This document shows, in pieces, positions 3,256-62,648 of a stretch of 64,000 nucleotides of DNA. The notes under the pieces are model-generated. The model was not told the origin of the DNA. It did not search any database and saw nothing but the letters and a program-made list of their open reading frames with translations. This stretch comes from Sipunculus nudus (Eukaryota; Annelida; Sipuncula; Golfingiida; Sipunculidae). The position numbers and the translations under genes were made by a program. Location: NCBI GenBank assembly GCA_026874595.1, contig CM049311.1, forward strand, positions 46,441,676 through 46,505,675, in the 5' to 3' direction. Each line of letters opens with the position of its first letter. Positions within the stretch are counted from its first letter, which is position 1.

Positions 3256-3260
3256 TCCAT
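3256..3260. repeat. Target-site duplication TCCAT, left copy
   Basis: TCCAT lies directly before CCCCTTACC here, and again at 7490-7494 directly after GGTAAGGG. The pair delimits the 3261-7489 element. The copies are exact over 5 bp. The left terminus has one C more than the right, so the boundary is uncertain by one base. Confidence 0.55.
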
Positions 3261-3275
3261 CCCCTTACCAAAATG

Positions 3276-3592
3276 GAAAGTACTCACATATATGTGCCTT
3301 ATATGTCCCTTATAAGGGCCTTATATGTCCCTTATAAGAGACATATAAGGCACATATAAATGCTAATTATGTGAGTTATATGTATATGGCAGCTATATGT
3401 TTAGTCAGGCATTGTTATATGTGAGTTATAAGGGAGTTGTATGTTTGTTATATGTCAGTTATAAGGGAGCTGCACATCAGGCCATTCTGTACAGTTCATT
3501 TATATGTGACTTGTATGGGAGATATAAGGGAGTTGAATGTGAAGGGGTTCTGTATATGTCAGTTATATGTCAGTTATAAGTTTATATACTGT
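3276..3592. repeat. Left array of CATATATG/TTATAAGG palindromic units
   Basis: Irregular tandem units of about 20 bp mix acatatatg, agttataagg and ccttatatgt. Perfect CC(A/T)6GG sequences (CCTTATAAGG) occur at about 3307 and 3330. The block gtgccttatatgtc is followed by its complement gacatataaggcac near 3340, giving a fold-back. The right array at 7095-7475 is built of the same units. The small open frame at 3397-3579 is a product of the repeat. Confidence 0.75.
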
Positions 3593-4272
3593 GAGCTTAC
3601 TGTTCTATAAGATAGGACTTAGACACTTTCCAAGGGAACACAAATGCTGCAGAAACTTCTAAGTCCCAGCTCCATTATGGTTTTAAGAAAATGAATTATA
3701 ATTTAATAATAAATACTGAAGAAGTATGTTAAAATGGGTATCAAAATAACCAGCTTCCTCAGAACTTTATGTATATTAGAAAAATAATACTATAAATAAT
3801 TTTTTTTTTTCATCTGATGTATACATTAAGAGGTATAACATACCTATAGTAATCATGCATGCAGTAAAACATCATTTACTCAAAACACAATACAAAAAAA
3901 TAATTTGACTATATTTCACAATGGTTATAATTTGTGCCCTTGATAATTATAAGAAAAAATAATTCTTTTGGAATGTAGTGTATATACAAACACTACAGCA
4001 TCTAATTGCAATTGATAACTACTTCATAAATACAGAACAAAGGGTATTGATGTAGTGTGCCACTGACCAATCATGGGAATACATAGGCATTAACCTAATA
4101 TCATATTGGTTTTAGAAACAGCTCACCACCCACACATTCCAGCTGTAAAATATTGCCATTGAAAATCAACAGCATTGATAAAAGCAGAGGTACTTAAAAA
4201 AATAAGTATCTGCATTCTTATTGTGACAATAACCAGCATTCTAATCAGTAAATTTCTCAAGTATATGTAACA

Positions 4273-4285
4273 CCCCCCCCCCCCC
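4273..4285. repeat. Poly-C tract (13 C)
   Basis: An uninterrupted run of 13 C in the presumed 5' flank of the internal transcription unit. No function is inferred. Confidence 0.9.
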
Positions 4286-4362
4286 TTAGCAGACAAGCTT
4301 GCTGTACAAGCTCTCTCTACAATGGACCTTTGACCTTACTGTACCCTGCCCTGGAATAGTGG

Positions 4363-4370
4363 TGACGTCA
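4363..4370 (+). promoter_or_regulatory. Full palindromic CRE, TGACGTCA
   Basis: A perfect 8-bp cAMP-response element consensus. It sits about 170 bp upstream of the first splice donor (4533) of the candidate transcript, a position that suits a promoter element. No TATA box is evident nearby, so the transcription start is not fixed. Binding by CREB/ATF factors is known for this motif in animals; its use here is inference. Confidence 0.45.
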
Positions 4371-5975
4371 CATGAATACTGTACAGGCTGTGCACAACAA
4401 AGGCATGCAGAGTCAGTTTACATCTGAATGATAACATCCGGTAACCGTTAAGGGAGTACACACTTTGAAGAGAAGTTCTTTGTCAAGCTGCTCAAGCAGA
4501 AGGGGAATGTATAGCTAAAAAATGTCTCATTGGTGAGTAATCTTGCATTATTTAAGTTATTTTTGCATAGTAAACCAGTGATTGCATAAAGATGACTTCA
4601 CCTATCTTGGTTTGCCCTGAAAAAAAACAGAATTTGTGTGTTTCAAGATAACATTTCCTATTTGGTGGCCAATTTTTACAAAATAACATATTTTTGACAA
4701 AAAGCTGATGCTGTTGCCCCTATATAGTGACATTGTGCATGTTCTATGCACCAACAGGAAGTTAAGAACATCCTTTTCAGTGATGCTATTTGCAATTCGG
4801 TGTGAAAAAATCAAGAGTCAGCAGCAGGCCCCAAAGTTTACATATTGATGTAATTTCTTAATGTCCCCTACCTGTGGAAGGGATGATCAGTTAGCCTACA
4901 TAAAGCTTAATCAGCACACAAATGCTATGAGTACCACATACTACCATTTTATTTGTTGAACCTATGGCTATTGACCATGTTATTATTTAGCTGAACTCTG
5001 GGTCATGAAAAAAAAGCTGCTACAAGGTATAGATGTTCCTTTTCATTTTCCAAATTGACTTGAATTTTTTGTCTTGCTTGAGTGCCCAAAAGTTATAATA
5101 TGGTTAAAAATTGTTAATTATACAATGTTCATAAGTTTTTCTTTCAGGCAAAGTAAACATTAAACACTGTTGATCATTGCTGAATTTACAGCCACTGTCT
5201 CAATTTTGGTGAATGCTTTTTTTTTATAAAATTGAAGAGCGGTTTGCTGTACTCAACCAAAACATTTCAACTAATCTAAAAAATTAATCAAATATTTTTT
5301 ACTATTGGAGTCTTTCACACAAAAACTCCTAAATTAAGCTTTAATTTCATAATATGCCCTTCTACATGTCATTTACATATACTGTAAACACCAATTTATT
5401 AACAATTTGATACATAACACAGTATGTTTCATAACAATCCACAAACCATTCATAATCATATGTATGAATTTAATCTGAATTTGACATCAGGTCAAGAACA
5501 CCCTTTTAAAGGTCATGAGCACTTTAACTTTAATGGGCCTGGTCCTCTGACTTTCATTTGAGGTTTCTTCTGACATACTAGTATTCACTTTCATTACAAA
5601 AGAAAAAGCATAATAATTTGGGAATTTGTTTCACTAAGGATCAGATGATTTCATAAGGTACTATTTTGATTCCCAGAGAGAAATCAAATCTGGTTCAATT
5701 TAAAGGTTAATCAAAAGTGCATTTTTAGTCTACCTTGAATGATTTCTTTTTATATGTACATGTAGTAGTGCCATTTCACCATAAAAGATCAAGAAGTCAT
5801 TTTGAACATCATTGATGTACTGTTTTAGTAATTTTATTGATGTGAGGCCCTTTTTTAGTCCATTTGTCTACTTAAATGTTAAAATATGCAAGACTCCATG
5901 TTCTTAATTATTTATTTCCAACAACCTTTGTTTCTATGATTTGTAATGGTTTCTTTACTTTTCCAGTATGAAGAA

Positions 5976-6672
5976 ATGGTGCAGAAAGTAAAAGGAGAGC
6001 CCATATATCTCCAGCCCTTGCAAGAATTGTCTGGTAAGCATATTCAGTTAATCATATAAAGTAACATTTAAATCTTTTAGCAAATGGGAAATGTTATGAA
6101 TTGTAAGTTTTTTTTATCAAATAGCTGATATAGCTTACCATATTTGAAGTGCAAATTTGGTGGTTAACATTTATTGTGCATATGGGATATAAATATATTA
6201 TTATAAACTGTTTACATGTTAAAATTGTTTCAACTGAGTAACCTACTTTCTGAACCTATGAGCATCTTTAGGCCACAGTGTCTGTCCTGTGACCAGTATA
6301 TTTGATAATCTGTAATGTTTGTATATACTCTGTATAACTGGAAAACTCTTCCTGTGTTAGTAATTGAGAAGTCCAACTGTATTTACTTATAATCCTAAAT
6401 GTTAAACAGGCATATTTTCAGAACATTGAAAACCCCTATATAGAGAGCAGATGTACTTTCAGTGAAATAAATTCTTTTCCTTTTTTGACTTGTGTGTTGC
6501 CTCCAGATAAGGTAAACTACTATAAATGTTAAGAAAAGCAATACTAAGCATCAATGTCAAAAGATATTCTTTAAACTTATTTAATAAGATAATTAATGTA
6601 AGCAATAATGACTATATGTGTATACTTAGACTGGTAACATTTGTTTTTGCAGGTCAAACAGGAGGGGACTGA
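5976..6672 (+). CDS. Small spliced open frame (25 aa), unrecognised
   Basis: Two coding segments are joined: 5976-6033 in exon 2 and 6653-6672 in exon 3. The start ATG has a strong context (gaaATGG). Exon 2 is open in only one frame throughout, and the split glycine codon G|GT keeps the frame into exon 3, where TGA follows at 6670-6672. The predicted peptide begins MVQKVKGEPIYL and ends GQTGGD. It has no signal peptide, membrane segment or known motif. In the same frame exon 1 has a TAG 18 bases before its donor and no ATG after it, so no longer N-terminus can come from exon 1. I do not recognise it. A larger protein with unseen exons or a noncoding RNA are both possible. Confidence 0.25.
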
Positions 6673-6809
6673 AAAGGATTTAGAGTGTGGCAAGGGTGTA
6701 TATTTCCTTCCAGCCTTCATTCTCTAAAAGGACAACACTCTCAAATCTGACTGAACCAGGGAGTTTTAAAAATCTTATGAAAATATTATTTTCAGTTTAC
6801 AAATGTGTA

Positions 6810-6815
6810 AATAAA
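6810..6815 (+). terminator. Poly(A) signal AATAAA of the candidate transcript
   Basis: AATAAA lies about 140 bp after the exon 3 stop codon and is followed by a T- and GT-rich stretch (about 6825-6865), the usual arrangement for animal 3' end formation. Confidence 0.45.
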
Positions 6816-7094
6816 CATTAATTTTGGCTCTTGTATTTTCTTACTTTTATGTTTCATGTTTTTGCGTCCATATGACTGTGTGAAGTTGATGACCCCCAGT
6901 GTGACTGCAGGCCAGCATTGATTTCAAGGAATTGCACAGTGCAGGAAGCTCACCACACACACACAAACCTTAATTTCTATCATCTACCGTAATTCCTTGT
7001 GGAATAAAGAAAAGGGTAAACACCTTTCAAAACAGAACATACAACAGACAGTAACTGAGCTATTGACAAACAGTACAGAAGGTGCATACACTGA

Positions 7095-7475
7095 CTTATA
7101 TGTGAGTTATATGTCACTTATAAGGGACATATATGGCACTTATAAGGCTCATATATGTCACATATATGGGAGTTATAAGGCACATATATGTGAGTTATAA
7201 GGCACATATATGGGACATATATGGGAGTTATAAGGGACATATATGGGACATATATGGGAGTCATAGGGGACCTATATGTGGAAGCCTTATAAGTGACATA
7301 TAAGGCCCATATATGTGACATATAAGGCTCCTACCTAATTTGCATATAAAATCCATATACCGGACATATATGTGACATATATGCGAGTTATAAGGTTGGA
7401 TATAAGGGACATATATGGCACATATATGTGCCTTATATGTGCCATATAACTTTCACATATATGGCACTTATAAAA
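7095..7475. repeat. Right array of CATATATG/TTATAAGG palindromic units
   Basis: About 380 bp of units such as agttataaggcacatatatg and gggacatatatggg in several orders, with many self-complementary cores (CATATATG, TTATAA). It is the counterpart of the array at 3276-3592 in inverted context. The open frames at 6997-7200 (plus) and 7118-7321 (minus) are repeat products with a recurring Tyr-x-Ser/Pro-Tyr pattern. Confidence 0.8.
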
Positions 7476-7857
7476 ATTTTTGGTAAGGGTCCATAAAAGA
7501 TTCTTATATCATCAGTAAATGCAAGTTAATTTCCTGTTATTATAAACTAACAAATTCCTTTTCCATTTTTCTTTAATTTGTTATTAAAAAACAATAAAAA
7601 TTTATTAATTTATTGTTTATTGTTATGTTGTTGGTTAAAACTACTAGATGAGTTGGGTTGGACACCTGGATCAACTGTGGCTGGCCATAGGCTGTCTGGC
7701 TGCCCCAGTGTATGCCTCACCTCAAGCATGCATAATTTGCTGAAAGTTCAACAAGGTCAACATATAGGTGACTCAAGAGGGGCTGGAGAGAGCCAAGGTC
7801 TGACATGGTCTCATAAAAAAATTAATAAAAGTTACAATTTTTGGCCAATTTCTGTCA

Positions 7858-9358: not shown

Positions 9359-11058
9359 CCATTGGACTTACATTTATATGCTGAGAGGTAGAGCAGAGGG
9401 AGTCCTGCCACAAGGAGAATACTCCTGCCTTAACTGTTAACTCAATAAATAATCTTATCTTCATCCAACTCTTTGTTATCATAACTTGGCAGGGCTGAGT
9501 ACTGCAGTTTATCACATAGAACACAAGGAAGGTTCTTTGTAGTCCCACTTTATGAATAAAGATTGTGAGATACAATCAATGATCTAGATACTGATACTCA
9601 ATTTTCAATGCACCTTTACAGTCAGTTTAGACAACTTTAGGCTAAAAACACATTTGTCCAAGGCTGAGTTCAAAACCACTGAGTCCGTGTAATCATTTAA
9701 ATGTAGATGAAATGTTACAAATAAATTTAATACAAATGAGATTAGATAATATCACATGCCATTGCCATTAACATTGTCAGATGCAAATGTAGTTAAAAAT
9801 ACATTAACAACTGAACTCTGCTTTGCCTGATGATAAAATATATGTATTGCCAAAGGAACTACTAAAACCATTATGGAAGAATTATTTCATGGTTCTGAGT
9901 GAGGCTTTTTTTGTGATTATTATTCTGAGTCCAGCTTATTATTCATTCTAACATTATTTGGGAGAGGTCTGCATGAATTAATCCAGGAATGGTTTGAACC
10001 CAGCCAATATTTCAATATTTTGCATGGGCTTAGCTAGAGACACTGGCATAAACAATTGTTGATAGATGCTGACAAACCTTTCATGATATATAAAATGTCT
10101 ATATATTTCCCCAGACTGATGAGAAAATACAGAAATTAACCCTTAAGGCCACACTTGTCATCATTTATGACATTTTAAGACCAAAACAGACCTTCCCTAC
10201 TGCATGAGGAGCCAAGTGCCAATACTGTCACTTATTATGTAGATTATCAGCTCCTTATAATTTAGTGCCAATACTGTCACTTATTATGTAGATTATCAGC
10301 TCCTTATAACTGCATTTGCATTTTAAGCCAAACTTGCCATCCATGTGGATGTATTTATGATACTCTTACTGTGTAATTAAAAAAGTGGACCTCTTGCGAT
10401 GAGTATATGGATCATGAAGTAAAATGTAACGGTCTAATTTTTATGAAAGGAAGGTTGCAATATTTATCTTAAACAAGAACAGACTTCTCTTTTTTATTGT
10501 CAGCACTGCAGTAAAAAAGCCATTGCAGAAAAGGCAACTAATTTTTCTCAATAGCACTTTTAATCAATGCTAGCTGTAATCTTTTCTGATTTGCAGTATT
10601 TCTGCACTAGATTAAATATTTATTAACACATTTTTCAACTTCTTTGAAAAGTTTTGAAAAAAAGTTGTCAGATGATATATATATTGTTGCTAAAATTAGT
10701 CTCTCTCTCTCCTTCTTTGTTATTAATGTAGTTAACATTTGTATTCAGTCAGCTAACCCTACTGACAAAACAAGCTCGCTTAGTCTCATCACATCACTGT
10801 TACAAGGGACTGGGTTGTGGTGCTGCTTTCAGAGAGTCCTGGGGCTTGTCTGGATGTGTACTGATCACTGAGGTGGAATGATTCAGATTCTAACAAGGAA
10901 AATGAGTTTCGATCCTTGTGTAAACACTGACAAACCACTGATAATTAACCAGGTAAGAGCTTGGTATTGTACACACAGGTCAGGTATGTGACTTGGAAGC
11001 AGACAAATTAAACAGAGGTTAAAGCTTTCCTTCAACATACTTTTGTGGCTAGATCCCA
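9359..11058. other. Unassigned sequence with one short direct duplication
   Basis: No recognisable gene. The only clear structure is the 46-bp duplication listed separately. A segment at 10732-10952 lies between a polypyrimidine acceptor and a strong donor (CAG|GTAAGAG); its best frame is open for 49 codons from the acceptor to a TGA near 10880. It could be a noncoding exon, but no partner exon was found. Confidence 0.4.
10215..10309. repeat. 46-bp direct duplication
   Basis: Two identical 46-bp copies beginning agtgccaatactgtcac, at 10215-10260 and 10264-10309, are separated by three bases (period 49 bp). This is a recent local duplication with no further meaning that I can see. Confidence 0.95.
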
Positions 11059-11654: not shown

Positions 11655-11953
11655 TTAGGTCCTAAAATTTTATCACATTTGAATATTAGGATTCAAATCC
11701 TGATTTTTTTTTAAATTTCAAAATTGTTCAAGTCTCAACAGAAAGTGAATTTAACATTGAAATAACAAGATTCATCTTGTTTCTTTGTCCTGTGTATTAC
11801 ACAAAGTAGTTAGGTCCTAAAATTTTATCACATTTGAATATTAGGATTCAAATCCTGATTTTTTTTTAAATTTCAAAATTGTTCAAGTCTCAACAGAAAG
11901 TGAATTTAACATTGAAATAACAAGATTCATCTTGTTTCTTTGTCCTGTGTATT
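11655..11953. repeat. 144-bp perfect tandem duplication (period 155)
   Basis: The copies at 11655-11798 and 11810-11953 are identical as read by eye, including a 9-T run. They are separated by 11 bp. The perfect identity suggests a recent duplication within an older A copy. Confidence 0.95.
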
Positions 11954-18472: not shown

Positions 18473-19885
18473 GTCCAGGCAAGGTCAAGTCATGCTGTGT
18501 CATGTGGCAGAGCAGAGTGGCAAGGTCAAGTAAGTCATGCTGTGTCATGTGGTAATGCAGAGTGGCAAGGTCAAGTCATGCTGTGTTGTGTGGCAGAGCA
18601 GAGTGGCAAGGTCAATTAAGTCATGCTGTGTCATGTGTTAATGCAGAGTGGCAAGGTCAAGTCATGCTGTGTCATGTGGCAGAGCAAAGTGGCAAGGTCA
18701 AGTCATGCTGTGTCATGTGGCAGAGCAGAGTGGCAAGGTCAAGTCATGCTGTGTCATGTGGTAGTGCAGAGTGGCAAGATCAAGACATGCTGTGTCATGT
18801 GGCAGAGCAGAGTGGCAAGGTCAAGTCATGCTGTGTTGTGTGGTAGTGCAGAGTGGCAAGGTCAAGTCATGCTGTGTCATGTGGCAGAGCAGAGTGGTAA
18901 GGTCAAGTCATGCTGTGTCATGTGGCAGAGCAGAGTGGCAAGGTCAAGTCATGCTGTGTCATGTGGCAGAGCAGAGTGGCAAGGTCAAGTCATGCTGTGT
19001 TGTGTGGCAGAGCAGAGTGGTAAGGTAAAGTCATGCTGTGTCATGTGGCAGAGCAGAGAGGCAAGGTCAAGTCATGCTGTGTCATGTGGTAGTGCAGAGT
19101 GGCAAGATCAAGACATGCTGTGTCATGTGGCAGAGCAAAGTGGCAAGGTCAAGTCATGCTGTGTCATGTGGTAGTGCAGAGTGGCAAGGTCAAGTCATGC
19201 TGTGTCATGTGGCAGATCAGAGCGGCAAGGTCAAGTCATGCTGTGTCATGTGGCAGATCAGAGTGGTAAGGTCAAGTCATGCTGTGTCATGTGGCAGAGC
19301 AGAGTGGCAAAATCAAGTCATGATGTGTCATGTGGCAGATCAGAGTGGTAAGGTCAAGTCATGCTGTGTCATGTGGCAGATCAGAGTGGTAAGGTCAAGT
19401 CATGCTGTGTCATGTGGCAGAGCAGAGTGGCAAAATCAAGTCATGATGTGTCATGTGGCAGATCAGAGTGGTAAGGTCAAGTCATGCTGTGTCATGTGGT
19501 AGTGCAGAGTGGCAAGGTCAAGTCATGCTGTGTCATGTGGTAGTGCAGAGTGGCAAGGTCAAGTCATGCTGTGTCATGTGGCAGAGCAGAGCGGCAAGGT
19601 CAAGTCATGCTGTGTCATGTGGCAGAGCAGAGTGGCAAGATCAAGACATGCTGTGTCATGTGGCAGAGCAGAGCGGCAAGGTCAAGTCATGCTGTGTCAT
19701 GTGGCAGAGCAGAGTGGCAAATCAAGTCATGATGTGTCATGTGGCAGATCAGAGTGGTAAGGTCAAGTCATGCTGTGTCATGTGGTAGTGCAGAGTGGCA
19801 AGGTCAAGTCATGCTGTGTCATGTGGTAGAGCAGAGCTGCAAGGAGAATTCAGTCACACTGTGTCATGTGGCAGAGCAGAGTGGC
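18473..19885 (+). repeat. 41-bp minisatellite/satellite array, about 34 copies
   Basis: The unit is gcagagcagagtggcaaggt followed by caagtcatgctgtgtcatgtg. Variants include gtagtgcag, gcagatcagagtggtaagg and caagatcaagacatg. Stretches show higher-order structure: a three-unit, 123-bp block repeats at 19255 and 19378. The consensus has no stop codon on the plus strand, and 41 is not a multiple of 3, so all three plus frames stay open and give overlapping open frames of up to 183 codons with a 41-residue repeat. These are not genes. Confidence 0.97.
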
Positions 19886-29164: not shown

Positions 29165-32100
29165 TATTTTACATAATATATATTATTAAATATATGTATT
29201 TTTTATTTTATAAAATGTATACAGTTGAAATATAACTGATGTCCCCAGTCCCCAGATGCAAGGACTTGGTGGTGGTGGTAGTATATGGGGGGGGGGGGGG
29301 GGGGGGGGAGGGCTGGAATAATGGGAGTTACAACATTTCTGTGTTATAGTGTATATACATATAGGATTTCCACTTAATTCAACAATACTTACAGGATTAA
29401 ATAGTTCATTCAGAATAACATAATATTTAAAAAAGGACAGACAGACTGTTAGACAAACAAAGCTGATAATATATTTTAATATTTTAAAGTTTTTCATCTG
29501 CAATATTACACATCTGAATACATAAGTTGCTTTCAAATTTCAGACTTTAATAGCTTAAATCCATACACATACAACATATGAAAGTTATTTCAACAGTGCT
29601 TAGAGGCAAAATTTCATAATTAATATATATATTTAATGATAATTGAGAGATGATGGACAGACAGAGCCGTTCCATTCTCCTGAGGCAAGAATATGTTTCA
29701 ATTAGATCTTGATTTTTTCTAATCCAATTTGCAATTATAACTGATGTCCCAGTGCAAAGGTGACGGTGAGGTGCAAAGGATCAATGACAGCTGGGGGGGG
29801 GGGGGGGGGGGAGGATTATTAACACTTTTGCATATACATTCAGGGCAAACAAAGCCTGATCTCCAATTCTGCTGAGGCTCCAAAATAATAAACACATGTT
29901 TGTATTAGATCCTCATTTTTTTTATTTTAAGTTTAATTTGTATACATTTCCAATATAACATATATTTCTGAATATAAACGTTGATTCATATTTCTAAATT
30001 GCATCATCATATATCTCAATCTTGTCATATAACACCACATCATGCATACAAATGTATATTTATATATTCATGGGGGGGGGGGGGGGGGAGGGGGTGTGAT
30101 ATGAGAACAATCTTACACCTGTCACAGCAGGGGATCTCCCCTAGTGACTGTAACAAATCAGGAACCCTGGCATAGCTGACTTCCAGTGACCTGGAGTGGC
30201 CTACCTGCATCTGGAACAAAGCAAGTGACTACAATAGAACCTCAAGATAAAATTCAATAACTAGAATAATTTTCAAACTTTTGTTGGATTCCTAGGTCTT
30301 ACGGTTTCAAAACGTGCCACATCTACGGACGGAGGGATGGACAGACGACGGACAATGGACCATGACTATAGCTCAGATGACTTAAAGTCAGCTGAGCTAA
30401 AAAGGACAGACAGACTGGTAGAGAAACACAGCTATATATTTTACATAATATATATTATTAAATATATGTATTTTTTATTTTATAAAATGTATACAGTTGA
30501 AATATAACTGATGTCCCCAGTCCCCAGATGCAAGGACTTGGTGGTGGTGGTAGTATATGGGGGGGGGGGAGGGCTGGAATAATGGGAGTTACAACATTTC
30601 TGTGTTATAGTGTATATACATATAGGATTTCCACTTAATTCAACAATACTTACAGGATTAAATAGTTCATTCAGAATAACATAATATTTAAAAAAGGACA
30701 GACAGACTGTTAGACAAACAAAGCTGATAATATATTTTAATATTTTAAAGTTTTCCATCTGCAATATTACACATCTGAATACATAAGTTGCTTTCAAATT
30801 TCAGACTTTAATAGCTTAAATCCATACACATACAACATATGAAAGTTATTTCAACAGTGCTTAGAGGCAAAATTTCATAATTAATATATATATTTAATGA
30901 TAATTGAGAGATGATGGACAGACAGAGCCGTTCCATTCTCCTGAGGCAAGAATATGTTTCAATTAGATCTTGATTTTTTCTAATCCAATTTGCAATTATA
31001 ACTGATGTCCCAGTGCAAAGGTGACGGTGAGGTGCAAAGGATCAATGACAGCTGGGGGGGGGGGGGAGGATTATTAACACTTTTGCATATACATTCAGGG
31101 CAAACAAAGCCTGATCTCCAATTCTGCTGAGGCTCCAAAATAATAAACACATGTTTGTATTAGATCCTCATTTTTTTTATTTTAAGTTTAATTTGTATAC
31201 ATTTCCAATATAACATATATTTCTGAATATAAACGTTGATTCATATTTCTAAATTGCATCATCATATATCTCAATCTTGTCATATAACACCACATCATGC
31301 ATACAAATGTATATTTATATATTCATGGGGGGGGGGGGGAGGGGGTGTGATATGAGAACAATCTTACACCTGTCACAGCAGGGGATCTCCCCTAGTGACT
31401 GTAACAAATCAGGAACCCTGGCATAGCTGACTTCCAGTGACCTGGAGTGGCCTACCTGCATCTGGAACAAAGCAAGTGACTACAATAGAACCTCAAGATA
31501 AAATTCAATAACTAGAATAATTTTCAAACTTTTGTTGGATTCCTAGGTCTTACGGTTTCAAAACGTGCCACATCTACGGACGGAGGGATGGACAGACGAC
31601 GGACAATGGACCATGACTATAGCTCAGATGACTTAAAGTCAGCTGAGCTAAAAAGGACAGACAGACTGGTAGAGAAACACAGCTATATATTTTACATAAT
31701 ATATATTATTAAATATATGTATTTTTTATTTTATAAAATGTATACAGTTGAAATATAACTGATGTCCCCAGTCCCCAGATGCAAGGACTTGGTGGTGGTG
31801 GTAGTATATGGGGGGGGGGGGGGGGGAGGGCTGGAATAATGGGAGTTACAACATTTCTGTGTTATAGTGTATATACATATAGGATTTCCACTTAATTCAA
31901 CAATACTTACAGGATAAAATAGTTCATTCAGAATAACATAATATTTAAAAAAGGACAGACAGACTGTTAGACAAACAAAGCTGATAATATATTTTAATAT
32001 TTTAAAGTTTTCCATCTGCAATATTACACATCTGAATACATAAGTTGCTTTCAAATTTCAGACTTTAATAGCTTAAATCCATACACATACAACATATGAA

Positions 32101-47625: not shown

Positions 47626-49285
47626 GATGTGTCGGAACAACACGAATGCCCCCGCCTGGGGCAAATTAGAAACATTTGTTAAATTTTGTTAAATTTTTTA
47701 AGTTCAGGAGGTGTTGTATGGTCAAAAGTAGGTCAAGAAGGGCAAAATGCAAACTCGATATGTAACGGGTAATTATCAAGCAACACACCAAAAACCAGGC
47801 CAGTATGCAGGCATTGTGAAAAAAAGTCCATACATGTGCATTTTTCATAAAAATTTCTGTCTTTCATGAAATTTTCTATGTTCAGGATCTGTCATATGGT
47901 CAAAAATAGGTTAACTGGGACGAAACGTGAACTCGATCTGTAAGTGGTCATTATGCGCCCACAGACCAAACATTGGGCCAGTATCTGTAAGCATTGCATT
48001 GCGAAACTAGAATATTAGCAAAAGCTGATAATCAGTTATAAATTTAAATTGGAGAGGTATGTCCATGTTTTATAACAATCCACCAAATGCTTCCTGAGAA
48101 ATATCCCCCTAAGTTTTTTTTCTATACTAAGCTCTGTGACCTTGAAAAAGTAGGTCAAGACCACCCATCTTTGAACTTGACCAAGATTTTGTAAATATGA
48201 TGCAAAAGCACTGAAGTAATGAAGTTCCTGTGTTGAATACCTTTGGAGATATCCTGCACAAAAGGCCAAAATTGAAAAATCGATAAAATTTCATTAAAAT
48301 CAGAAATTGCAGGTGACGCCACCAAAATTGGGCAGCACGTACAGACCATCAGTGCCAATGATCATAGTAAGTTTTGTGAAAATCCACACAATGGTTCCTG
48401 AGATATAAGCTTCTGAGTGTTTTTCTATAATCAGCTATAAAATGTAGAGAAATGGGTCAAGGTCACCCATCTTCGAACTTGACCGAGATTTTATCGATAT
48501 ACATCTTCACTGATGAAATAAAATTCCAACGGTGAATCCTTTTAGAGATATCCCCCTCACAAGGTAAAAGTTAACAGACGCAGAACAGACAGATGGACGG
48601 ACGGATAGACCGACAGCTTGGGTGATGACAATAGCCCATCAGCCTATGAGCTGAGGGCTAAAAACGGCTGTACATGTACATTTGTCATGAAAATTTATAT
48701 TTTTCATGAAATTTTCTATGTTTAGGAGCCGTAAAAAGATCAAAAGTAGGTCAACCGGGACAAAAGGCGGACTCGATCTGTAACTAGTCATTATCTGCCC
48801 ACACATAAAAAATCAGGGCGGTATCTATCTGCAGGCATTGCAAAAAAAAGTCCGCACATGTGTATTTGTCATGAAAATTTATATTTTTCATGAAATTTTC
48901 TAAGTTAAGGAGCCGTAAAACGGTCAAAAGTAGGTCAACTGAGACGAAACGCGAACTCGATCTGTAACTGGTCAATATCTGCATACACACCAAAAATCAG
49001 GCCAATATCTGCAGGCACTGCGAAAAAATACCGTACATGTGTATTTGTCATGAAAATTTCTATTTTTCATGAAATTTTCTAAGTTTAGGAGCCGTAAAAC
49101 GGTCAAAAGTAGGTCAACCAGGACGAAACACGAACTCAATCTGTAACTGGTCATTAACTGCCCACACACCAAAAATCAGGCCAATATCTGCAGGCATTGC
49201 GAAAAAAAGTCTGTACAACTGTTTGATTTCTGAATGACGGAAGGACTTCGAAGGACTGAATAACCGACATGGGTAAAACTATATG
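47626..49285 (+). mobile_element. Family C+H copy with truncated 5' end and lost 3' hairpin
   Basis: It starts inside the 5' hairpin (gatgtgtcggaacaacacg) without ACTAGA. The H module runs from about 48003 to 48663, with ggtgacgccacc at 48313 and a gacggacggatagaccgac run. Units of about 180 bp follow (aggagccgtaaaa at 48724, 48907 and 49087). At 49278-49288 the sequence reads actatatgcataaaaat, where full copies carry a GC-rich hairpin between tatg and gcata. Confidence 0.7.
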
Positions 49286-58757: not shown

Positions 58758-61003
58758 ACTAGATGTGTCGGAACGACACGAATGCCCCCGCCTTGGGCAA
58801 ATTAGAAACATTTTTGTAAAATTTGTTAAGTTCAGGAGGTATTATATGGTCAAAAGTAGGTCAACAAGGGCAAAATGCAAACTCGATCTGTAAAGGGTCA
58901 TTATCAAGCAACACACCAAAAATCAGGCCAGTATATGCAGGCATTGTGAAAAAAAGTCCATATATGTGCATTTATCATAAAAATTTCTGTCTTTCATGAA
59001 ATTTTCTATGTTCAGGATCTGTCATATGGTGAAAAATAGGTTAACTGGGACGAAACGCAAACTCAATCTGTAAGTGGTCATTATGCGCCCACAGACCAAA
59101 CATTAGGCCAGTATCTGTAAGCATTGCATTGCGAAACTAGAATATTAGCAAAAGTTGATAATCATTTATAAATTTAAATTGGAGAGGTATATACCATGTT
59201 TCATAACAATCCACCAAATGCTTCCTGAGAAATAAGCTCCTAAGTTTTTTTCTATACTAAGCTCTGTAACCTTGAAAAGTAGGTCAAGATCACCCATCTT
59301 TGAACTTGACCAAGATTTTGTAAATATAATGCAATAGCACTGAAGAAATGAAGTTCCTGTGTTGAATACCTTTGGAGATATCCTGCACAAAAGGCCAAAA
59401 TTGAAAAAATCCGATAAATTTTCATTAACAAATCAGAAATTGTAGGGGGCGCCACCAAAATTGTGCAGCACATACAGACTATCAGTCCCAATGATCATAG
59501 TAAGTTTTGTGAAAATCCACACAATGGTTCCTGAGATATAAACTTCTGAGTGTTTTTCTATGATCAGCTCTAAAATGTAGAAAAATGGGTCAAGGTCAAC
59601 CATCTTCGAACTTGACCGAGATTTTATCGATATACATCTTGACTGATGAAATAAAATTCCAACGGTGAATCCTTTTAGAGATATCCCGCTCACAAGGTAA
59701 AAGTTAACAGACGCAGAACGGACAGACGGACAGACACCGGACAGACAGATGGATGGACGGACAGACGGACAGCTTGGGTGACGACAATAGCCCATCAGCC
59801 TATGAGCTGAGGGCTAAAAACGGCTGTACATTATGTATTTGTCATGAAAATTTCTATTTTTCATAAATTTTTCTAAGTTTAGAAGCCGTAAAATGGTCAA
59901 AAGTAGGTCAACCGGGACGAAAGGCAAACTCGATCTGTAACTGGTCATTATCTGCCCACACACCAAAAATCAGGCCAATATCTGCAGGCATTGCGAAAAA
60001 AAGTCCGTACATGTGTATTTGTCATGAAAATTTCTATTTTTCTTGAAATTTTCTAAGTTTAGGAGCCGTAAAATGGTCAAAAGTAGGTCAACCGGGACGA
60101 AACGCGAACTCGATCTGTAACTGGTCTATATCTGCCCACACTTCAAAAATCACGCCAATATCTGCAGGCACTGGAAAAAAAGTCCGTACATGTGTATAAT
60201 TGTCATGAAAATTTCTATTTGTCATGAATTTTTCTAAGTTTAGGAGCTGTAAAACGGTCAAAAGTAGGTCAACCGGGACGAAACGCGAACTCGATCTGTA
60301 TCTGGTCATTATCTGCCCACACACCAAAAATCAGGCAAATATCTGCAGGCATTGCGAAAAAAGTCCGTTCATGTGTATTTGTCATGAAAATTTCTATTTT
60401 TCATGAATTTTTCTATGTTTAGGAGCGGTAAAACGGTCAAAAGTAGGTCAACCGGGACGAAACGCGAACTCGATCTGTAACTGGTCATTATCTGCCAACA
60501 CATAAAAAATCAGGCCAATATCTGCAGGCATTGCGAAAAAAAGTCCGTACATGTGTATTTGTCATGAAAATTTCTATTTTTCATGAATTTTTCTATGTTT
60601 AGGAGCCGTAAAACGGTCAAAAGTAGGTCAACCAGGACGAAACACGAACTCGATCTGTAACTGGTCATTATCTGCCCACACACCAAAAATCAGGCCAATA
60701 TCTGCAGGCATTGTGAAAAAAAGTCTGTACATGTGTATTTGTCATGAACATTTCTATTTTTCATGAAATTTTCTAAGTTTTGGAGCCGTAAAACGGTCAA
60801 AAGTAGGTCAACCGGGACTAAACGCGAACTCGATCTGTAACTGGTCATTATCTGCCCACACACCAAAAATCAGGCCAATATCTGCAGGCATTGTGAAAAA
60901 AAGTCCGTACAACTGTTTGATTTCTGAATCACGGAATGATGGAATGACGGAATGACGGACATGGGTAAAACTATATGCCCCGGCCACTTTGTGGCGGGGG
61001 CAT
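58758..61003 (+). mobile_element. Full family C+H element
   Basis: The 5' end is ACTAGATGTGTCGGAACGAC, whose GTGTCGGAACGACAC forms a hairpin, followed by aatgcccccgcc. The H module is at 59136-59820. A tandem array of 180-bp units runs 59821-60905 (aggagccgtaaaa-type starts at 59881, 60061, 60242, 60421, 60601 and 60781). The 3' end is a GC-rich hairpin (arms GCCCC.GCCAC and GTGGC.GGGGC) followed by CAT and an A-run. The 5' gaatgcccccgcc and the 3' ggcgggggcat are inverted repeats of each other. This is the best reference copy of family C. Confidence 0.8.
59821..60905 (+). repeat. 180-bp tandem array, six units
   Basis: Units are 180 bp with almost no length drift and read gtaaaacggtcaaaagtagg, cgaaacgcgaactcgatctg, ctggtcattatctgcccaca, ccaatatctgcaggcattgc, gtccgtacatgtgtatttgt and a block of tttttcatgaa. 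Shorter arrays of the same unit lie at 48700-49205 and 61431-62610. Open frames such as 60088-60327 (minus) derive from it. Confidence 0.95.
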
Positions 61004-61347: not shown

Positions 61348-62648
61348 ACTAGATGTGTCGGAACGACACGAATGCCCCCGCCTTGGGCAAATTAGAAACA
61401 TTTGTAAAATTTGGAAAATTTTTTAAGCTCAGGAGGTGTCGTATGGTCAAAAGTAGGTCAACAAGGGCAAAATGCAAACTCGATCTGTAACGGGTCATTA
61501 TCAAGCAACACACCAAAAATCATGCCAGTATATGCAGGCATTGTGAAAAAAAGTCCATACATGTGCATTTTCCATAAAAATTTCTGTCTTTCATGAAATT
61601 TTCTATGTTTAGGATCCATAAAACAATCAAAAGTAGGTTAACCAGGATGAAACGCAAACTCGATCTGTAACTGTCATTATCTGCCCACACAAAAAAAATC
61701 AGGGTGGTATCTGCAGGCATTGAGGAAAAAAAGTCAGTACATATGCATTTGTTATGAAAATTTATATTTTTCATGAAACTTTCTATGTTCAGGAGCAGTC
61801 AAATGGTCAAAAGTAGGTCAACTGAGACAAAACAAGAACTCGATCTGTAACTGGTCATTATCTGCCTACACACCAAAAATCAGGCCCATATCTGCAGGCA
61901 CTGCGAAATAAAGTCCATACATGTGCACCTTTTTTATGAAATTTTCTATGTTACAGCACCGTCAAACGGTCAAAAATAGGTCAACTGGGACAAAACGTGA
62001 ATTACATCTGTAACTGGTCAATATCTGCCAACACACCAAATTCAGGCCAATATCTGCAGGCATTGCGAAAAAATGTCTGTACATGTGTATTTGTCATGAA
62101 ATTTCATATTTTTCATGAAATTTTCTATGTTCAGGAGCCGTAAAACGGTCAAAAGTAAGTCAACCGGGACGAAACGCGAACTCGATCTGTAACTGGTCTA
62201 TATCTGCCCACACACCAAAAATTAGGCCTATATCTGCAGGCATTGCGAAAAAAAGTCCGTACATGTGTATCTGTCATGAATATTTCTATTTTACATGAAA
62301 ATTTCTAAGTTTAGGAGCCGTAAAACGGTCAAAAGTAGGTCAACTAGGACGAAACGCGAACTTGATCTGTAACTGGTCTATATCTGTCCACACACCAAAA
62401 ATCAGGCCAATATCTGCAGGCATTGCGAAAAAAAGTCATACATGTGTATCTGTCATGAATATTTCTATTTTTCATGAAACTTTCTAAGTTTAGGAGCCGT
62501 AAAACAGTCAAAAGTAGGTCAACCGGGACGAAACGCGAACTCGATCTGTAACCGGTCTATATCTGCCTACACACCAAAAATCAGGCCAATATCTGTAGGC
62601 ATTGCAAAAAAAAGTCCGTACAACTGTTTCATTTTGTGGCGGGGGCAT
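61348..62648 (+). mobile_element. Family-C element without H, damaged 3' hairpin
   Basis: It has the same 5' end as the copy at 58758 (ACTAGATGTGTCGGAACGAC), about six and a half 180-bp units and no H module. The 3' end reads ttcattttgtggcgggggca, so the first arm of the terminal hairpin is missing. It is inserted at the matching A-rich position of the next B unit. Confidence 0.75.

Follow-up and report, generated by a model that had tools for sequence, protein, structure and literature searches.

The 4,228-bp element at positions 3262-7489 of the window, the 64,000-nucleotide stretch of Sipunculus nudus DNA analysed here, is most likely a non-autonomous cut-and-paste transposon of the CMC (CACTA/EnSpm-Mirage-Chapaev) type that was moved in trans by the transposase of a larger relative (probability roughly 0.85), since it has no transposase of its own and a relative has similar ends, a 2-bp target duplication and a CACTA/Mirage-type transposase. 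The finding connects an abundant non-coding transposon with a rare relative in the same genome that encodes a transposase; the ends are of a non-CACTA type and the duplication is 2 bp long. Other orphan families with CCCTTAC ends become easier to assign as a result. In the mechanism we propose, the terminal repeats and the subterminal arrays would form the cis-acting part, on which the transposase of the much larger relative would act in trans and make the 2-bp duplication. The interior, with a CRE promoter-like stretch and three putative exons, would be a passenger, originating either as a decayed piece of the ancestral element's second gene or as captured sequence.

Ends, copies and target duplication

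The structural features of the element and its flanks are the following (evidence in brackets).

3260-3261, no strand: 2-bp target duplication TC, left copy (matching 2-bp flanks in 28/33 copies)
3262-7489, no strand: 4,228-bp copy of a non-autonomous DNA transposon, subfamily A (ends, whole-interior matches, left-end matches, pairwise identities)
3262-3274, plus strand: left terminal inverted repeat (end comparison)
3285-3600, no strand: left subterminal array with an 11-bp period and TATATGTGACN/TATAAGGGAGT-like units (autocorrelation; lower divergence between B and D than in most of the interior)
3777-7096, no strand: central 3.3 kb, not clearly similar to the 13.9-kb relative, with approximate borders (end and interior comparison)
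7092-7470, no strand: right subterminal array with an 11-bp period (autocorrelation; 90% identity between the right ends of the B consensus and the 13.9-kb relative)
7477-7489, minus strand: right terminal inverted repeat (end comparison)
7490-7491, no strand: 2-bp target duplication TC, right copy (matching 2-bp flanks as for the left copy)

The element runs from CCCTTACC to GGTAAGGG and has the inverted ends described by a first-pass annotation of this DNA, with CCCTTACCAAAA at 3262 and TTTTGGTAAGGG ending at 7489. That annotation also proposed a genome search with the ends, which bears out its view of a mobile element with other copies: the left-end pattern has 199 genome matches (up to three mismatches) vs. 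0 for a reversed-pattern control, and the whole interior is found at 91-100% identity in 30 places, window copy included, when the best 40 of 479 candidates are scored. What had been called paired palindromic arrays are indeed repeat arrays inside both ends, but by nature they are subterminal repeats with an 11-bp period, about one helical turn; the 11-base autocorrelation reaches 0.53 and 0.63 vs. shuffle maxima of 0.37 and 0.36, and both ends and arrays are beyond chance. The absence of a transposase was also read correctly, as there is no open frame of at least 100 aa inside the element.

The copies fall into subfamilies A to D, with those of A and B being recent given their mean divergence from their own consensus of 0.87% (A, n = 12) and 1.19% (B, n = 8). 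Between B and D, the end regions have diverged by 5.3 and 5.8% and the interior segments by 7.2-11.4%; between A and B it is the exons, not the arrays, that are least diverged, which counts against our preferred explanation. Six long copies (L005, L006, L007, L029, L030 and L031) were considered as autonomous elements and rejected, their extra sequence being located at differing positions and containing no frame longer than 115 aa. One insert is common to L029 and L030, and the usual interior is present in L025-L028. Subfamilies C and D and, via overlap with a second search, the 13.9-kb relative were reached from the pattern CCCTTACGAAAANNH, which has 143 sites vs. 149 in the control (100 of the matches listed). 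Another pattern, CCCTTACCAAAAAV, has 89 sites vs. 31 in the control, with no inverted pair visible by eye.

The 5-bp target duplication TCCAT of the first-pass annotation has to be replaced. Its two copies are at 3256-3260 and 7490-7494, which places the left one a base away from the element end, and the repeat is coincidental. Across 28 copies of the window-element family and five of a sister family, in a comparison that tolerated one changed base in the ends (applied to L006 and L020), 2-bp flanks match in 28 copies and 3-bp flanks, counted from per-copy flags, in 0/33. The exceptions are L011, L020, L030, L031 and L021a, the last with a split right end, so that its flank cannot be compared. 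Ten different dinucleotides occur among the 28 matching copies, demonstrating a 2-bp duplication without a fixed target sequence. A natural test is provided by L021, where a B copy is nested in the right end of an A copy and splits GGTAAGGG into GGTAA and AAGGG, with AA duplicated.

A 13.9-kb relative with a transposase gene

The relative (C12:5839470-5853357, L055 plus L056; 13,888 bp) is flanked by TT on both sides, a 2-bp duplication, and has ends like those of the window-element family, with 74.7% identity to the B consensus over 518 columns on the left and 90.1% over 404 columns on the right. On its minus strand, towards the left end, it encodes a CACTA/Mirage-type transposase split over two frames, matching Transposase_21 (3.2e-13, 49.8 bits, cut-off 28.6) as well as DUF1258 (37.9 bits, cut-off 33.1), the latter corresponding to the Mirage group according to a passage of PMC3985635. 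Assigned by eye from sequence positions, D332, D419 and C438-x2-C441 are followed by H-x3-H and E in the adjoining frame, an order that agrees with the one given for the group in a passage of PMC12730594. Because the transposase is split into two frames, this particular copy may be inactive; among the best 79 of 84 candidates, no other match exceeds 45% identity to its 549-aa part as a closer partner. We infer that the transposase of this relative, or of now-lost kin, moved the copies described here, with the arrays as its candidate binding sites.

The only CRE of the joined locus is at 6768 and is followed by plus-strand open stretches at 6820-7197, 9650-10402 and 11673-11918, a second-gene model drawn by eye. 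These stretches have no Pfam match above cut-off, the third showing a weak BEN match (E 0.0015, 19.1 bits, cut-off 23.2). The middle of the window-element family has no clear DNA or peptide similarity to the relative's interior, and descent by simple internal deletion of the relative is without support, as 3.3 kb have no clear match.

The interior: CRE, splice-like sites and a 50-aa frame

Between the arrays, the element has the following features.

4273-4285, plus strand: poly-C run, directly preceding the promoter-like region (sequence; poly-C also in the sister family)
4363-4370, no strand: full CRE TGACGTCA (kept in 19/21 aligned copies)
4421-4532, plus strand: putative exon 1, 5' border putative, donor GTGAGT at 4533 (GT kept in 21/21 copies and in C and D copies)
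5967-6033, plus strand: putative exon 2, donor GTAAGC at 6034 (alignment; B reading frame stopped here in A, TAT to TAA)
6653-6830, plus strand: putative exon 3 with AATAAA at 6810-6815 (AATAAA in 19/21 aligned copies)

The single full CRE reported earlier is confirmed; the two C copies lack it and the D copy has it in altered form, and a CRE arises in 0.8% of 500 Markov simulations, run for the interior of the window-element family alone. The consensus splice sites and the poly(A) signal fare less well. GT/AG splice-like sites are present at 4532/5967 and 6033/6653, and the four borders are kept in all five sequences of the alignment with C and D copies, but donor-like motifs are no commoner in the interior than chance would have them (4 seen vs. 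2.7 expected, P 0.29); acceptor-like motifs are weakly above chance (P 0.04). Likewise, AATAAA exists at 6810, but its presence in the interior is not above chance (P 0.72).

It is decidedly improbable that the element has a small spliced gene of its own (50 aa) that works, or that it makes a functional spliced RNA. Such a gene would account for the 50-aa frame over the three exons being open in 8/8 B copies and for splice borders being kept in 21/21 copies of A and B and also in those of C and D. However, the frame is open in 0/13 other copies of the alignment with the B copies; by subfamily, it is stopped in A and, in the copies read, in D, with C having both a changed start and a stop. Comparison of the B copies with one B reference copy gives 21 non-synonymous and 4 synonymous changes (shared changes counted per copy). 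This reading is based on 32 rows, leaving out the incomplete L006 and L025; the rows of L022, L031, L047, L053 and L054 are out of register, and the frames of L022, L047, L053 and L054 were taken from separate alignments. An open frame in one subfamily is no proof of a gene, and the 50-aa peptide has no Pfam match. Substitutions between the A and B consensus sequences do favour the exons (5/347 vs. 77/1951 in introns, Fisher p 0.018), but when the exon set is rotated over the interior, the p values are 0.036 (A-B), 0.43 (B-D) and 0.47 (B-C) for substitutions and 0.17, 0.54 and 0.04, respectively, with gaps included. The exons are not consistently better conserved than the introns. No spliced, intronless copy is found among the best 40 of 570 candidates. 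Judged from these alignments, the small gene proposed in the first-pass annotation shows no sign of preservation as a protein gene; given the borders kept in the five aligned sequences, a spliced RNA without protein product may be made.

Classification and origin of the interior

The assignment to the CMC group comes from the ends that element and relative have in common and from the transposase of the relative, a CMC-type DDE enzyme with C(2)C and H(3-4)H ahead of the final E; its frame is split, and the element itself does not encode it. Our 2-bp duplication is within the 2-5 bp stated for the wider CMCT group in a passage of PMC12730594. The termini differ from those of the named types, with CCCTTAC in place of the CA..TG found in most CMC cases and of the CACTA-type termini of CACTA sensu stricto, and plant CACTA elements have a 3-bp duplication, unlike this family. 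The resemblance to CACTA/EnSpm lies in the short direct and inverted subterminal repeats over several hundred bases, a partner transposase that matches Transposase_21 and in which D, D, C(2)C, H(3)H and E, as placed by eye, follow one another in order, the presence in the relative of another open region apart from the transposase, and non-coding copies that far outnumber the coding one; the 11-bp array unit, on the other hand, has a sequence of its own. Likeness to the Mirage group concerns the transposase, which passes the DUF1258 cut-off. Mirage elements have a 2-bp duplication. Counting against the CMC reading are the CCCTTAC ends, the 2-bp duplication, the partner's left end being only 75% identical, and the five of 33 copies without a 2-bp match. 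ISL2EU (PHIS), or a different superfamily that makes 2-bp duplications, would fit that length, but is highly improbable: AT is the target duplication of ISL2EU in a passage of PMC4482050 and is found here in only 3/28 matching copies, on which ground ISL2EU was rejected, and the relative's transposase is of the Transposase_21/DUF1258 kind.

The interior of the element could be the remnant of an accessory gene of the ancestral element, CRE promoter and exons included, with the transposase gene lost. We consider the chance of this to be somewhat short of even. The relative has its minus-strand transposase at the left and plus-strand open stretches after its only CRE, one with the weak BEN match, and a comparable layout is seen in the sister family, whose ends are the same; on the other side are the lack of clear similarity between the two interiors, the stretches without a Pfam match above cut-off, and the CRE that the C copies lack and the D copy has in altered form. 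It is unlikely that, as in Pack-type elements, a CMC transposon took up part of a host gene together with its promoter (CRE, three exons, poly(A) signal) and then multiplied. Capture would explain why the ends match the larger relative and the 3.3-kb middle does not, and why CRE, intron-like borders and poly(A) signal are all on one strand, and the element resembles Pack-type elements in that sequence of another kind, with gene-like signals, is enclosed by ends belonging to an autonomous family. However, the scored matches gave neither a donor gene nor a recognisable captured coding exon, with no donor locus outside the family among the best 40 of 479, 40 of 570 and 150 of 378 candidates, a weak negative since it covers part of the candidates and the check for transposon ends did not extend to every match. 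The peptide without a Pfam match also argues against capture, and the relative's own CRE, ahead of a stretch resembling a second gene, means that a host source is not needed.

The sister family (L032-L036) has the terminal inverted repeat CCCTTACCGAAAA, a 2-bp duplication in 5/5 copies and the layout array, poly-C, two CREs, donor, AATAAA, array. It resembles the window-element family in ends, duplication length, poly-C, CRE and 11-bp period, the last being weaker (0.38 vs. shuffle maxima of 0.36 and 0.32), but interior and array unit are unrelated, and it is of low copy number, with 7 near-complete copies and some fragments among the best 40 of 527 candidates, compared with the 199 left-end matches above. 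Full CREs stand ahead of a plus-strand, spliced-looking unit in an autonomous-sized element and in two non-autonomous families with unrelated interiors; within the window-element family, CRE and unit are present in subfamilies A and B, with the CRE lost or altered in C and D. It is nevertheless quite unlikely that a CRE-driven (cAMP-responsive) putative transcription unit is a regular part of the make-up of these transposons; if it were, the window-element family would have spread cAMP-responsive promoters, together with a small spliced RNA, to perhaps as many as about 200 places in the genome. Both families may have been described earlier. In the sister-family copy on C5, the gap (L037) contains retroelement-like frames; only parts of the sister family are present in L038-L041.

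Ends, copies and subfamilies

The element at window positions 3262–7489 (window C6:46441676-46505675 of the 1.43-Gb genome) is, in our judgement, a member of a non-autonomous transposon family of CMC type whose ends are unusual. The first-pass annotation had proposed a search for other copies with these ends, and a 33-base left-end pattern indeed occurs at 199 genome sites (111 + 88; at most 3 mismatches) vs. 0 for the reversed control. The left end matched many loci (best 40 of 434 candidates scored) and the whole interior 30 places, including the window copy (best 40 of 479). Across 21 aligned copies of subfamilies A and B, with gaps left uncounted, pairwise identity is 97.3–99.2% within A, the window copy's group (L022 and L023 being farthest), 97.0–98.7% within B and 95.0–95.9% between them; the mean distance to the own consensus is 0.87% for A (12 copies, without L022) and 1.19% for B (8 copies). 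Subfamilies C and D are older than A and B. Subfamily D (L053) is 87% identical to B across its full length, and C (L047, L054) consists of shorter elements with a strongly diverged left half. Locus L052 (C4:27578670-27583300) has two same-orientation left ends 4,351 bp apart, the first followed by only ~420 bp recognised as family sequence.

A CCCTTAC start and a GTAAGGG end are common to 33 compared copies with three exceptions: one base is changed in L006 (left) and in L020 (right), and the right end of L021a is split by another inserted copy. The flanking dinucleotide is duplicated in 28 of the 33 (chance expectation ~2), namely 23/28 in this family and 5/5 in a low-copy sister family, and a 3-bp duplication is found in 0/33. 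Ten different dinucleotides are duplicated, and a strong target sequence is thus absent. Locus L021 (C6:70596780-70605390) holds two tandem elements, a B copy having inserted into an A copy at the latter's right terminal repeat; here the duplication can be seen directly, as the split GGTAA / AAGGG duplicates AA. The transposon originally annotated at 3261–7489 thus stands by its many genome copies with the same ends, but its 5-bp TCCAT duplication does not: since copies show 2-bp and never 3-bp duplications at CCCTTAC/GTAAGGG ends, TCCAT is a coincidence, its left copy being one base out of register. CACTA sensu stricto has CACTA termini and a 3-bp duplication, whereas the element has CCCTTAC ends and 2 bp, and that class is therefore ruled out.

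The paired arrays reported near both ends are borne out, with base autocorrelation peaking at 11 in the left (0.53) and right (0.63) arrays, above shuffle maxima of 0.37 and 0.36; an interior stretch of the element lacks an 11-base peak (0.26). We infer that the arrays are transposase recognition sites. Divergence between B and D is lowest in the two end regions (5.3% and 5.8%, vs. 7.2–11.4% in interior segments) and that between B and C at the right end (2.3%); between A and B, the exons of the putative spliced unit differ by 0.0, 1.5 and 1.7%, less than the ends (2.1 and 2.0%).

A transposase-bearing relative and a sister family

The element had been noted to carry no transposase; a CMC-type transposase is carried by a 13.9-kb relative, and the element would behave as CACTA passenger elements do, being mobilised in trans. 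A genome search with PF02992 (Pfam) gave 7 matches, and the one at C12:5842402-5842803 is 2.9 kb away from a CCCTTACGAAAA site. The surrounding element spans 13,888 bp with TT/TT flanks, is 74.7% (left end) and 90.1% (right end) identical to the B consensus and also has the 11-bp period in its ends (0.49 and 0.65). Its transposase reads as follows.

C12:5839470-5853357, whole element of the relative: minus-strand transposase, two adjoining frames (549 and 375 aa)

The 549-aa frame scores above the cut-offs of Transposase_21 and DUF1258, and the family search gave no match for the 375-aa frame. By eye, D332, D419 and C438/C441 follow in order, with H-x3-H and E after them in the 375-aa frame, and this fits the residue order that PMC12730594 gives for the group. 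Given the single frame change between the two parts, this copy may be inactive. Among the best 79 of 84 candidates, none of the other matches to the 549-aa part is more than 45% identical; in order of score, the second is 41% identical over residues 108–544. In the joined locus, the relative also has a CRE (position 6768) ahead of plus-strand open stretches: the first has only a weak DUF5312 match and another a weak BEN match, both below cut-off, and one other has no family match at E up to 1.

The sister family emerged from pattern CCCTTACCGAAAANNV (23 genome sites, control 17), whose sites include five inverted pairs 4.1–5.0 kb apart (L032–L036). These share the terminal sequence and 2-bp duplication of the family under study. 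Their 11-bp period is weaker (0.38 for each end, vs. shuffle maxima of 0.36 and 0.32), and their interior is unrelated and contains two CREs, one altered in L034. Under the Repbase superfamily rule, as cited by PMC4455052 (equal duplication length, at most one mismatch in the terminal 11 bases), the right ends place both families in a single superfamily; the left ends agree with the rule only if a gap of one base is allowed. Pattern CCCTTACCAAAAAV has 89 genome sites vs. 31 for its reversed control, without inverted pairs. In the L033 element, a section of the sister-family interior (~1430–2750) matches many places at ~70%, as an older repeat, and L037 (C5:64432700-64440000) has retroelement-like frames, judged by eye, within a sister-family copy.

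The putative spliced unit and the origin of the interior

A three-exon gene with CRE and poly(A) signal had been proposed inside the element. Its GT/AG borders are intact in 21/21 aligned A and B copies and in five sequences of a separate alignment including C and D copies, and the CRE and AATAAA are each present in 19/21, the CRE being altered in the D copy and missing from both C copies. A 50-aa reading over the three exons is found in 8/8 B copies and in 0 of the other 13 aligned rows; the D copy has an in-frame stop after five codons of exon 2, and C has GTG as start and likewise a stop in exon 2. In a wider set, at least 45 codons are open in 15/32 rows, all type B, with five of the 32 read out of register. 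Changes relative to L018, the B reference, are 21 non-synonymous and 4 synonymous, with shared changes counted per copy. A–B substitutions are fewer in exons (5/347) than in introns (77/1951; p 0.018); rotating the exon set gives p 0.036 (A–B), 0.43 (B–D) and 0.47 (B–C), or 0.17, 0.54 and 0.04 with gaps counted. Donor-like motifs occur at chance level. The 50-aa peptide has no Pfam match, and no intronless copy was seen among the best 40 of 570 candidates scored. Together these results make a protein gene unlikely; a spliced RNA is possible, judging from the sequence.

The ends shared with the relative cover about window 3262–3776 and 7097–7489, and the 3.3-kb middle has no clear similarity to it: the best peptide match has E 0.008 at 27% identity (0.084 for reversed sequences) and the best DNA match spans 36 bases (E 0.003). 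This interior may have been captured from the host or may descend from the second gene of another element. The latter is slightly favoured, because some layout features, such as a plus-strand CRE, are common to the relative and the sister family; a poly-C run of at least 9 before the promoter occurs only in the two non-autonomous families.

Satellites and other repeats

The copies L029 (56–7207) and L030 (55–7541), from different loci, share a similar nested insert, made up of arrayed ~337-bp units, at one internal position, which suggests that the element moved together with it. A satellite of ~337-bp period at window 36322–37490 matches this insert at up to 82%. Tandem Repeats Finder places a 179–180-bp satellite of one unit kind at 48670–49207, 59826–60911 and 61447–62622, and the nested insert of L007 matches the latter two arrays at up to 94%. 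Window 18478–19885 holds ~34 copies of a 41-bp tandem repeat with one frame open over long stretches. At 29186–32057, a nearly identical minus-strand open frame occurs three times (29186, 30480 and 31731), which suggests a repeated block of about 1.25–1.3 kb.
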